From: Lachnospiraceae bacterium
GTDB taxonomy: Bacteria > Bacillota > Clostridia > Lachnospirales > Lachnospiraceae
Assembly: GCA_022793065.1 (NCBI GenBank)
Contig: JAAWCE010000027.1
Coordinates: forward strand, 1-64,000
Direction: 5' to 3'
DNA: 64,000 nucleotides
Below the pieces are notes generated by a model. It was not told the DNA's origin. It saw only the letters and a program-made list of their open reading frames with translations, and ran no database searches. How positions within the stretch are numbered: position 1 is the stretch's first letter; each line of letters starts with the position of its first letter. Made by a program: the position numbers and the translations under genes. This document shows positions 3,397-56,506 of this stretch, in pieces.

Positions 3397-6273
3397 GTGG
3401 AAAAAGATAATGATGTCAGGCGCGTAAGCAGAAGTGGCGGCGGAAAAAGAAATTTGGGAGAGGGCGGTTTTGGAGATAACGGAACCAGAAATAGAAACCA
3501 AAACAGAAATCCTGAAAATAGAAGAAGTGATAACAGAGATGGGAACAGAGAGCGCGGAGGACGAAGCAGCCGTGACAGGGAGGCAGACATAAGGAGCAGC
3601 CGAAGCAGAGACGTCAGCGCCCGAAGCGGCCGTGACAGGGAGGCAGATGTAAGGAGCAGCCGAAGCAGAGACGTCAGCGCCCGAAGCGGCCGTGACAGGG
3701 AGGCAGACATAAGAAGCAGCCGAAGCAGAGACGTCAGCACCCGAAGCGGCCGTGACAGAGATAGGAATAGCCAAGGCAGGGATGGCGGCAATAGAACCAG
3801 TCAAAGCCGGGATATGGAAGCCGGAGTGGGAGGAAATAGAAAAAGCAAAGATAGAGGAAATACAAAGAGCGGAAGAAAGAGCCGCAAAGGAAATCAGGAC
3901 AATCGAATTATACAAATAGCAGAACACAGGGTTAAAAAGAATAAGGAACAGAAGAATAAATTTTCCATAAAAATGCAAAAAAAGCTGGCGGTGCTGTATA
4001 TGATGGTTTTGCTGGCGTTTTCCGGCCTGGTATTCCGACTTGCATGGATTACGAGGGAAAATGGCGCCAGGTATCAGAAACAGGTGCTTTCACAGCAAAA
4101 ATATGAATCTTCTGTGCTTCCTTTCCGACGAGGCGATATTGTGGATGCAAAGGGAACCAGGCTGGCCACCAGTGAGAAGGTGTATAATCTTGTGATTGAC
4201 GCTAAAGTCATGACAAGTGAAGTGAGAGGGAAGCAGATTTATCTGGAACCTACACTGCAGGCCCTGGCGGATAATTTTGATTTGGATATCAATGCAATTC
4301 GGGAATATGTTACGACACACAAAACTTCCTCTTATTATGTGCCTTTAAAGCAGCTTACCTATGAACAGATCAGTGGGTTCCTGGAGGCAAAACAGAATGA
4401 GGGAAAGACGGAAAACCAGGACACCAAACAGGACGTGGAGCCCACACAAAAGCAAGGCGGAGAGCAAGATTCGGACCAGTCGCAAAAAACAGATACAGGC
4501 CAGACGGAAAAAGGAGAGGAAGATAAGGAGGAAGAGCAGACTGTAAAAGGCAGCATAAACGGCGTTTGGTTTGAGGAAGAATATAAGCGCATTTATCCTT
4601 ATGATTCTCTGGCGGCGGATGTGATTGGCTTTTCCGGCAGGGATAATGTGGGAAGCTATGGACTGGAGGAATTTTATAATGATACGCTCAATGGCATTAA
4701 CGGCAGAGAATATGGTTATCTGAATGATGATCAGGCATTGGAGAGGACATTGAAACCGGCAATCGACGGATACAATATTCATTCCACCATTGACGCAAAT
4801 ATTCAGATGATTGTGGAAAAGTATCTGAAGAAATTTAATGAAGAGCACCAAAACGAGATTGTGCAAGGAAATGGAGCGGAAAATATCGCATGTATTATTA
4901 TGGGAGTAAATACCGGAGAAATTCTTGCAATGGCAGAATATCCGGGATATAATTTAAACGATGTAAGGAACCCTGAAAGCCTTATTGGCACCAGGATGGT
5001 AGAGCTTGTAACTAACGCCAACGGCTATGAGGAACTTAAGAAGACGGACACTTATATTACGGAAGAAGTGCTGGCCAATATGGACAGCGATCAGTTATAT
5101 CTGAATCTGAATAATCTGTGGAAAAGTTTCTGTATTACGGGAACCTATGAACCCGGTTCCACGGCGAAGACGTTTACAGTGGCGGCAGCGCTGGAGGAAG
5201 GGGCTATTTCTGCCAGCGATACTTTTGAGTGCAACAGTCTTGTGGAGGTGGGCGGTCATATGATGGGCTGCCATAACAGAGTGGACGGTGTGCTGACGCT
5301 GGAACAGGCAGTGGCGAAGTCTTGTAACGTTTCCATGATTAAGATTTCACAGATATTGGGCAGCGAAGCTTTTTGTAAGTTTCAGCAGATATTTAACTTT
5401 GGGCTGAAAACAAATATTGACCTTGCAGGGGAGGCAAGAACCGCCAGTTTCGTATATACGGCGGATAAGATGGGGCCTACGGATTTGGCTACCAATAGTT
5501 TTGGGCAGAATTTTAATGTGACCATGATAGAAATGATTGCAGGGTTCTGTTCACTGATTAATGGGGGGAATTATTATGAACCTCATTTGGTGAATAAGAT
5601 TACCAATGCAAACGGATCTACCATTACGCATATTGAACCCAGAGTATTGAAACAGACTGTCTCTGCGTCTACATCCGAGGTAATCAGGAGATGCTGCAAT
5701 GCGGTGGTTTCCAATGGTACAGGGCAATCGGCCAGACCGGCGGGTTATGCCATAGGAGGTAAGACGGGTACTGCGGAAACCATTGACCCTAATACTCATA
5801 AGCGATCTAAGACAGAGTTTGTGGTGTCTTTTCTGGGATACGCACCGGCGGACGATCCACAGATTGCCATTTATGTAGTGGTGGATAGACCAAATGTGGA
5901 AAAACAGAGTAATTCCGAGTTTGCCAAGGGGATTGTGCGGAATATTTTAACAGAAGTACTTCCCTATTTGAATATTTTCATGACGGAAGAGGTAACGGAA
6001 GCCGAGAGGCAGGAGCTGGATGCGCTGCAGTTAGACATTACCAATCATTATGGCCGTCCTTCGGAAGGAGATGAGGAAGATGAGGGGGAGGACCAGGATG
6101 AACCGCCAAATGCAGATCCCACAGGAACCGGAATGAGTTTCCCAATTGACCCGGAGACAGGGTATCGGGTGGACCCGGAGACGGGAGACAGATATGATCC
6201 GAATACCGGATTTGCAGTTGACGGCGCGGAATCTGTGCCAAATCCTGATCTTCCGCTAAATCCCAATCTGTAA
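3397..6273 (+). CDS. Class B penicillin-binding protein (FtsI-type) with Arg/Ser-rich repeat tail
   Basis: This is a peptidoglycan transpeptidase for septal wall synthesis, 958 residues, well above the usual 600-750. A GTG start follows AGAGG. Residues 1-190 are a basic, low-complexity cytoplasmic tail with three 20-residue repeats (RDREADIRSSRSRDVSARSG). One membrane segment follows at about 197-219 (LAVLYMMVLLAFSGLVFRL), then the dimerisation domain containing a Q/E/K-rich insert at about 330-385, and the transpeptidase domain with serine nucleophile S588 in STAK, SCN at 642-644 and KTG at 789-791. The C-terminus has an acidic stretch and three 8-residue repeats (DPETGYRV type). No PASTA domain is seen. 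It is the first of two class B PBPs in tandem; by position this would be the divisional one, which is inference. Confidence 0.92.
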   Translation: MEKDNDVRRVSRSGGGKRNLGEGGFGDNGTRNRNQNRNPENRRSDNRDGNRERGGRSSRDREADIRSSRSRDVSARSGRDREADVRSSRSRDVSARSGRDREADIRSSRSRDVSTRSGRDRDRNSQGRDGGNRTSQSRDMEAGVGGNRKSKDRGNTKSGRKSRKGNQDNRIIQIAEHRVKKNKEQKNKFSIKMQKKLAVLYMMVLLAFSGLVFRLAWITRENGARYQKQVLSQQKYESSVLPFRRGDIVDAKGTRLATSEKVYNLVIDAKVMTSEVRGKQIYLEPTLQALADNFDLDINAIREYVTTHKTSSYYVPLKQLTYEQISGFLEAKQNEGKTENQDTKQDVEPTQKQGGEQDSDQSQKTDTGQTEKGEEDKEEEQTVKGSINGVWFEEEYKRIYPYDSLAADVIGFSGRDNVGSYGLEEFYNDTLNGINGREYGYLNDDQALERTLKPAIDGYNIHSTIDANIQMIVEKYLKKFNEEHQNEIVQGNGAENIACIIMGVNTGEILAMAEYPGYNLNDVRNPESLIGTRMVELVTNANGYEELKKTDTYITEEVLANMDSDQLYLNLNNLWKSFCITGTYEPGSTAKTFTVAAALEEGAISASDTFECNSLVEVGGHMMGCHNRVDGVLTLEQAVAKSCNVSMIKISQILGSEAFCKFQQIFNFGLKTNIDLAGEARTASFVYTADKMGPTDLATNSFGQNFNVTMIEMIAGFCSLINGGNYYEPHLVNKITNANGSTITHIEPRVLKQTVSASTSEVIRRCCNAVVSNGTGQSARPAGYAIGGKTGTAETIDPNTHKRSKTEFVVSFLGYAPADDPQIAIYVVVDRPNVEKQSNSEFAKGIVRNILTEVLPYLNIFMTEEVTEAERQELDALQLDITNHYGRPSEGDEEDEGEDQDEPPNADPTGTGMSFPIDPETGYRVDPETGDRYDPNTGFAVDGAESVPNPDLPLNPNL
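3571..3758 (+). repeat. 60-bp tandem repeat in the PBP coding sequence
   Basis: Three in-frame 60-bp units run from 3571 to 3750, followed by the first eight bases of a fourth. They differ at only a few positions, so the duplication is recent or kept uniform. Each encodes the 20-residue arginine/serine/aspartate motif of the cytoplasmic PBP tail. Confidence 0.95.
6148..6219 (+). repeat. 24-bp coding repeat at the PBP C-terminus
   Basis: Three in-frame units of 24 bases encode DPETGYRV, DPETGDRY and DPNTGFAV. They lie outside the membrane after the transpeptidase domain and an acidic stretch (GDEEDEGEDQDE). The function is unknown. Confidence 0.85.
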
Positions 6274-53651: not shown

Positions 53652-54665
53652 ATGGCAGTAAGAGTAGCAATTAATGGTTTTGGCCGTATTGGCCGTCTGG
53701 CATTCAGACAGATGTTTGATGCGGAAGGATATGATGTAGTGGCAATCAATGACTTGACCAGCCCTAAAATGCTTGCACATTTGCTGAAGTATGATTCTTC
53801 TCAGGGCAAATACAAATATGCTGACTCCGTAGTAGCTGGCGAGGACAATATTACCGTAAACGGTAAGACCATTACAATTTACAAAGAGGCAGATGCTTCC
53901 AAGCTTCCCTGGGGCGAGCTGAAAGTGGACGTGGTTTTGGAGTGTACCGGTTTCTACACATCCAAGGATAAGGCATCCGCACACATTACGGCTGGCGCGC
54001 GTAAGGTTGTTATTTCTGCTCCGGCAGGAAATGATCTTCCTACCATCGTTTACAATGTAAACCACAATACCTTAAAGCCGGAAGATACCGTAATTTCCGC
54101 TGCTTCCTGTACAACAAACTGCCTGGCTCCTATGGCAAAGGCATTGAATGATTTCGCTCCGATTCAGAGCGGTATCATGACTACGGTACATGCTTATACA
54201 GGCGACCAGATGATTCTTGACGGACCTCAGAGAAAGGGTGATTTGAGAAGAAGCCGTGCGGGCGCTTGCAATATCGTTCCCAACTCTACCGGCGCTGCTA
54301 AGGCAATCGGCCTTGTTATCCCTGAGTTGAACGGAAAATTGATCGGTTCCGCTCAGCGTGTGCCTACCCCCACAGGTTCTACTACGATTCTGGTAGCAGT
54401 TGTTAAGGGCGAGGTTACAAAGGAAGATATCAATGCTGCTATGAAGGCTGCAAAGACAGAGTCCTTTGATTACAATGAGGATGAAATCGTATCCTCCGAT
54501 GTAATCGGCAGCACCTATGGTTCCATTTTTGATGCAACACAGACCATGGTTTCCAAAATGGATGATGGCAATTCTTTGGTACAGGTTGTATCATGGTATG
54601 ACAATGAGAACAGCTATACTTCTCAGATGGTTCGTACCATTAAGTATTTCAGCGAGCTTGCATAA
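53652..54665 (+). CDS. gap: Glyceraldehyde-3-phosphate dehydrogenase
   Basis: This NAD-dependent enzyme oxidises glyceraldehyde-3-phosphate to 1,3-bisphosphoglycerate. The 337 residues have the Rossmann start [19 protein letters not shown], catalytic cysteine in [15 protein letters not shown] and substrate motifs ([22 protein letters not shown]). Codon use is the strongest bias in the window, as expected for a highly expressed gene. AGGAGG precedes the start. A strong terminator follows, so it is expressed separately from pgk-tpiA. Confidence 0.98.
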
Positions 54666-54759
54666 TTGATTGTAAGTGTTACTATTCAAGATAGCACCGC
54701 GGGCTATGAGTGGTAATGTTTGGGTAGTTCATGGCTTGTTTGTGTACAGACCTATTGGG

Positions 54760-54789
54760 GGTCCGGTCTTATGGACCGGACCTTTTTTT
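54760..54789 (+). terminator. Terminator after gap
   Basis: GGTCCGGTC pairs with GACCGGACC around five bases, followed by seven T. Confidence 0.95.
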
Positions 54790-54839
54790 GTAAGGATGCG
54801 GGATTGTGGGAGCCGTTGTAAAGGTAACTGGCAGGGATT

Positions 54840-55012
54840 CGTTTTGTGAGCGTGTGAAGTGGGGAAGCTGCCGTCAAAGGCGGCTTACGGTTCGTTTCTG
54901 TGAGCGGACGGAACTGTCAGGATAAGCGGAATAAATACAGGGTGCGTTTCCGTGAACGAGCGTAATCGGAGTGCTGTTGTTATTAGTGGTTCGGGGAGCG
55001 TTTCTGTGAGCG
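54840..55012. repeat. Four-copy 53-bp periodic repeat between gap and pgk
   Basis: The core CGTTTCTGTGAGCG occurs at 54893 and 54999 exactly, as CGTTTTGTGAGCG at 54840 and as CGTTTCCGTGAACG at 54945. Start-to-start distances are 53, 52 and 54 bases, while the sequence between cores is not conserved. The 466-bp gap between gap and pgk holds the gap terminator, this array and a TTGACA at 55029 with no clear -10. No protein or tRNA is visible. Confidence 0.8.
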
Positions 55013-55131
55013 AGAGAAATGACTGTATTTGACATAAATGGATTTTGTGGCATCTGTCGCAAGGCTGTATCAAAGGGCTGTGACTTGATAAAATGAGAGA
55101 TAGTTTTTATTATATTATGGAGGTTTTAGAG

Positions 55132-56355
55132 ATGGGCTTGAATAAGAAATCCGTTGATGATATCAACGCAAAGGGAAAAAGAGTTCTTGTAAGATGTGAT
55201 TTCAATGTTCCTTTGAAGAATGGTGAGATTACGGACGAGACACGTATTGTTGCAGCGCTTCCTACCATTCAGAAGCTGATCAATGACGGCGGCAAGGTAA
55301 TACTCTGCTCCCATTTGGGCAAAGTGAAAAACGGGCCTAACGAAGGGGAATCTCTGGCGCCGGTAGCAAAGAGGCTTTCTGAGAAGCTGGGCAAAGAGGT
55401 TGTGTTTGTATCAGATTATCACGTAACAGGTGAAGCTGCAACCAAAGCGGTAGAGGATATGAAGGAAGGGGATGTTGTTCTGCTCCAGAATACCCGTTTC
55501 CGCGGCACAGAAGAGACTAAGAACGGTGAGACATTCAGCAAAGAACTGGCTGATTTGGCTGATTTGTATGTGTGCGACGCCTTTGGTTCTTCCCATAGGG
55601 CACATGCTTCCGTGGAAGGCGTTACCAAGTGCATTACCGCAAAAGGCGGAGAGAATGTAGTTGGCTATTTGATGCAGAAGGAAATTAATTTCCTGGGCAA
55701 TGCGGTAGAAAATCCGGTAAGACCTTTTGTTGCTATTTTGGGCGGTGCTAAGGTTGCCGATAAATTGAATGTTATTTCTAATTTGCTGGAGAAATGCGAT
55801 ACATTGATCATTGGCGGCGGTATGGCCTATACTTTCTTAAAGGCGCAGGGAAATGAAATCGGGAAATCTCTGGTTGACAATGAGAAGTTGGATTATTGTA
55901 AGGAAATGTTGGAAAAGGCGGAAAAACTGGGCAAAAAGCTGTTGCTTCCGGTAGATTCTGCAACCATTGCAGCATTCCCCAATCCCATTGACGCGCCTGT
56001 AGAGGTGGAGGTTTACAAGTCTTCTGAAATGCCGGCGGACAGAGAAGGATGCGATATTGGGCCGGAGACGTCAGCGCTGTATGCAGAAGCAGTGAAAAGC
56101 GCTAAGACTGTTGTTTGGAACGGACCTATGGGTGTGTTTGAGAATCCTACGCTTGCGGCAGGAACCATTGCAGTTGCAAAGGCATTGGCTGAGACAGATG
56201 CAACCACCATTATCGGCGGCGGCGATTCTGCAGCGGCAGTGAATCAGCTCGGCTTCGGCGATAAGATGAGTCATATTTCTACCGGCGGCGGCGCTTCCCT
56301 GGAATTCCTGGAAGGAAAAGTGCTTCCCGGTGTGGCGGCAGCAGACGACAAATAG
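55132..56355 (+). CDS. pgk: Phosphoglycerate kinase
   Basis: Pgk makes ATP from 1,3-bisphosphoglycerate. The 407 residues have the substrate motif [22 protein letters not shown], the HASVEGV arginine/histidine region, the hinge [14 protein letters not shown] and the nucleotide loop [12 protein letters not shown], ending with [29 protein letters not shown] 55132 follows GGAGG; the track start adds 13 residues. The last coding bases belong to a 51-bp repeat that continues past the stop codon. Confidence 0.97.
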
Positions 56356-56454
56356 AAGAAGACTGGGCAAGCCACACCGTGTGTGGCGGCAGCAGATGAC
56401 AAATAGAAGAAGTCTGGGCAAGCCACACCGTGTGTGGCAGCAGACGATAATATA
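56331..56454 (+). repeat. 51-bp direct repeat at the pgk 3' end
   Basis: The unit begins with the last pgk codons (TGTGGCGGCAGCAGACGAC) and the stop, and recurs at 56382 and, partly and with a 3-base loss, at 56433. Each spacer contains a hairpin GCCACAC-CGT-GTGTGGC (56371-56387 and 56422-56438). The array fills most of the space before tpiA. Confidence 0.92.
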
Positions 56455-56506
56455 GAATCAATGCAACAGATGGAAAAATTATAAATAGATAGTAGAGGAA
56501 ATTATT

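Follow-up and report, generated by a model that had tools for sequence, protein, structure and literature searches.

The four-copy array between gap and pgk in the window (the whole 64,000-nt stretch of Lachnospiraceae DNA analyzed here) is very probably the remnant of a lineage-specific intergenic tandem repeat of the minisatellite type. A decayed tandem repeat was one of the readings offered in the original prediction, and it is supported by homology between whole units in a sister species (G055), by drifting steps between units, and by a changed copy number. We regard the array as real but ordinary; beyond lengthening the gap–pgk spacer it probably serves no function, and a regulatory one is unlikely. 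Coordinates of the array and of its surroundings are given in Table 1.

Table 1. Features in and around the gap–pgk spacer of the window
Feature	Position	Strand	Description
gap (glyceraldehyde-3-phosphate dehydrogenase)	53652..54665	+	ORF of 337 aa; relatives 92%–98% identical across the genus
Box (AGACC) and intrinsic-terminator hairpin	54743..54791	+	GGTCCGGTC..GACCGGACC with T-tract; directly upstream of the array and not part of it
Whole lineage-specific decayed tandem array (very probable reading)	54783..55080	+	Present only in the window species and its sister G055
Unit 0	54783..54836	+	Terminator T-tract tail and following DNA, likely founder; G055 counterpart matches G055 unit 7
Core 1	54840..54852	+	CGTTTTGTGAGCG, 13 nt, one base short
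Core 2	54893..54906	+	CGTTTCTGTGAGCG
Core 3	54945..54958	+	CGTTTCCGTGAACG, two mismatches
Core 4	54999..55012	+	CGTTTCTGTGAGCG
pgk (phosphoglycerate kinase)	55132..56355	+	Homologs behind gap in relatives
51-bp tandem array, 2.2–2.6 copies	56330-56457		End of pgk and pgk–tpiA spacer

The recurrence of a 14-base core at steps of 53, 52, and 54 bp was confirmed and goes beyond chance. Four similar 13-mers chained at a nearly constant step scored 32/39, a score reached by 0/1000 dinucleotide shuffles of the spacer (mean 22.6, maximum 27). Identity within the window was 81% for the cores versus 37% for the remainder between units, the latter being about the level given by aligned unrelated sequence; uniform neutral decay would not predict a block as sharp as this, which is a point against the repeat reading. 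The intervening sequence had been described as unrelated, and this nearly holds for the window taken alone, but the units of G055 are related beyond the core. Weak traces of unit homology outside the core are found in the window itself (units 1 and 2, z = 2.1; units 3 and 4, z = 2.5). Tandem Repeats Finder did not report the window array, whose units are alike only in the ∼14-bp core. By eye only, a possible fifth unit, very degraded, starts near 55,050.

The adjacency of gap and pgk is kept through the genus, with a spacer of 469 bp in the window versus 78–260 bp in most members. Among 138 genus genomes, G055 alone had significant matches to the array stretch (E = 2.5e-7 and 5.3e-7), positioned between gap and pgk as in the window. 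By gap DNA, G055 also ranks first among the relatives (92%), followed by G079 (89%) and G060 (88%), in whose gap–pgk spacers (87 and 92 bp) we found nothing resembling the array; apart from that of G055, the 28 closest spacers read in the genus are all without it. The comparison of gap–pgk spacers among relatives, proposed earlier as a check, thus limits the array to two sister species. Judged from this distribution, it would most simply have originated in the most recent ancestor shared by the window species and G055.

The gap–pgk spacer of G055 is 764 bp long and holds about eight units, spaced successively by 56, 54, three times about 56, 54, and 58 bp; the start positions of units 4 and 5 were obtained by interpolation. 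Several pairs of these units are alike over their full length of ∼56 bp (78% across 81 bp and 72.5% across 120 bp), and the unit remainders still match with the first 20 nt removed (units 3 and 4, z = 9.4; units 2 and 8, z = 7.1; units 2 and 6, z = 6.0). This full-length homology implies that the period is the length of a tandem duplication unit. Units 3–6 have lost the core, and units 4 and 5 are similar to each other there. The adjacent head-to-tail homologs of whole units that characterize a minisatellite are clear in G055, and are represented in the window by the core and the weak traces around it. Variation in copy number and sequence between close relatives, a second characteristic, was also found: The window has four copies at steps of 52–54 bp, G055 has about eight at steps of 54–58 bp, and the next-closest species have none. 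Bacterial intergenic minisatellites (VNTR-type) likewise consist of head-to-tail units of ∼50–60 bp at one locus, with copy number or sequence differing between relatives; unlike such loci, the array is so strongly decayed that the core is the only likeness left among the window units.

The tail of the gap terminator is very likely the founder unit, as judged by sequence similarity. In G055, unit 0, which comprises the terminator T-tract and the ∼50 bp after it, matches unit 7 (z = 8.8; 0/300 shuffles), so that the sequence immediately following the gap terminator is the very likely source; the window's own units 0 and 1 resemble each other weakly (z = 2.8). We propose that, in the common ancestor with G055, a stretch of ∼54–57 bp after the gap terminator, including the T-tract tail, would have been duplicated head-to-tail several times, presumably through replication slippage or unequal recombination. 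The copies would later have drifted apart through substitutions and small indels, with the slowest change in a block of ∼16 bp derived from the tail of the terminator (cf. TTTTTCCGTAACG and CGTTTCCGTGAGCG). The step of 53 bp would then be the unit length, with no helical constraint behind it.

A different origin of the step had been suggested, namely five helical turns that place a protein on each core along one face of the DNA, forming a putative regulatory array that controls pgk–tpiA. Steps of 53, 52, and 54 bp are compatible with five turns, the window cores are better kept than the remainder, and a promoter-like TTGATA-17-TATTAT (10/12 consensus positions) lies downstream at 55,085–55,113, directly before pgk. 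The G055 steps, however, do not amount to five turns; spacings of 56 and 58 bp turn neighboring cores by about a third to half a turn (for a helical repeat of 10.5 bp), leaving the sites out of phase, and whole-turn spacing is not kept between the species. Moreover, half of the G055 units lack the core, the sites are missing at the orthologous gene in all other relatives read despite the retention of gap–pgk, and there is no exact core elsewhere in the genome. We therefore consider a regulatory array very unlikely.

Conservation of the cores between the window and G055 is uneven. Core 2 was identical at 15/15 aligned positions and core 1 at 10/15, with a permutation p of 0.006 for the two together that is post hoc, the core having been chosen beforehand as the best-kept block; for cores 3 and 4, positional alignment gave agreement at 9/15 and 6/15 (0.6 and 0.4). 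By way of reference, identity between the two species is 91% for the terminator box and hairpin versus 68% for the stretch preceding them. Alternatively, the cores might each fold into a small hairpin (CGUUU-CUGU-GAGCG) in the read-through transcript and affect mRNA stability or pgk translation. Core 2 with its flanks folds to −8.7 kcal/mol (z = −1.9), and core 3, by reading, turns a U-G pair into U-A; but for cores 1, 3, and 4 folding is no stronger than in shuffled sequence (z = −0.1, 0.3, and 1.2), the whole insert reaches a z of −1.9 only, and the distribution is equally restricted to two sister species, making a role of this kind extremely improbable. There is also little chance that the array combines both histories, as decayed copies of the terminator tail whose cores were kept as putative factor-binding sites or RNA hairpins tuning transcription from the gap terminator into pgk. 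If true, such retention would represent a new lineage-specific control array grown from a terminator tail.

The genome-wide count of the core called for in the original prediction confined it to the gap–pgk site. Exact matches in the 4.0-Mb genome were copies 2 and 4 only. Allowing one or two mismatches gave 25 matches (three in the array) versus 15 for a reversed-pattern control, with no second array in the genomic contexts read around them, and a relaxed pattern (CGYTTNNNTGARCG) gave 10 matches (three in the array) versus three for the control, the contexts read being mostly coding in appearance. A BLAST search of 54,790–55,095 against its own genome returned, besides itself, nothing below E = 0.04. 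Rfam had nothing at gathering score (a weak PyrR match, E = 2.1, is at chance level), and our literature search found no account of this array. The suggested family of dispersed or mobile repeats (REP- or MITE-like), inserted several times, was rejected. The cores are short and partly palindromic, as such a family would have it, but REP/BIME and MITE elements have many dispersed copies in a genome, and here a single locus was found, with no copy in 136 other genus genomes. The regular spacing and the homology of the unit remainders in G055 also speak against it, and we give it virtually no chance. The array is not a CRISPR either, as had been anticipated: CRISPRs carry near-identical repeats of ∼23–50 bp with unrelated spacers, and these cores are 13–14 bp long and imperfect, with spacers that are mutually homologous in G055.

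Tandem duplication is not confined to the gap–pgk spacer. The 51-bp array copies the last pgk codons into the pgk–tpiA spacer, and G055 has, at the same place behind pgk, 2.9 copies of a 51-bp unit of different, internally uniform sequence, with an additional short array before tpiA. The 51-bp arrays have turned over independently in the two species, and such recurrent duplication in spacers of the lineage adds weight to an inert origin for the 53-bp array. By reading, the 51-bp unit junction forms a short hairpin in both species (GCCACAC-CGT-GTGTGGC versus CGCAAC..GTTGCG). Elsewhere in the window, positions 3562–3758 hold a 60-bp tandem repeat (3.3 copies, 94% matches, 30-bp half-period). An intergenic tandem repeat may decay to one short visible block per unit and so mimic a phased operator array; here, one close relative resolved the two.

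The conserved box and hairpin upstream of the array are of more interest than the array itself. The element consists of a box, (A)AGACC-TATnA, then a hairpin, GGTCCGGTC..GGACCGGACC, then a T-tract. Hairpins of this sequence type were present in 98/101 distinct gap–pgk spacers read, among them spacers from Lachnospiraceae, Blautia, Anaerovibrio, and Selenomonas records, and in 0/16 gap genes without a neighboring pgk (19 examined, 16 with long enough downstream DNA); the association with pgk adjacency has a Fisher p of 5e-17, which is nominal because the sequences are not independent. The window's genome has a single occurrence of the exact hairpin pattern, and 7/12 hairpin pairs show changes on both sides that preserve pairing. 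Searching 200 genomes of the phylum with a covariance model yielded 17 hits; five of these, namely the top four and one scoring 30.6 bits, map between gap and pgk, and the other twelve, all ≤33 bits, have no gap or pgk nearby.

In three genomes of family f45, gap is 78%–85% but pgk only 47%–50% identical to the copies in the window, a hint that gap may travel together with the element. Records of Xylanibacter, Prevotella, and Bacteroidaceae also contain gap proteins that share 82% identity with that of the window; together with f45, these look like either horizontal transfer of gap or contaminated bins.

No Rfam family matched the element, and our literature search on a conserved gap–pgk RNA element found nothing except the terminator of Clostridium beijerinckii. 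In the gap–pgk–tpi operon of that species, RNA-Seq coverage falls behind gap, and terminator attenuation has been proposed (PMC3271303). What the two loci share is an intrinsic terminator located after gap and before pgk, and this likeness pertains to the hairpin upstream of the array and not to the array. The box and hairpin are a candidate attenuator, and may merit their own study as one that sets the gap:pgk ratio.
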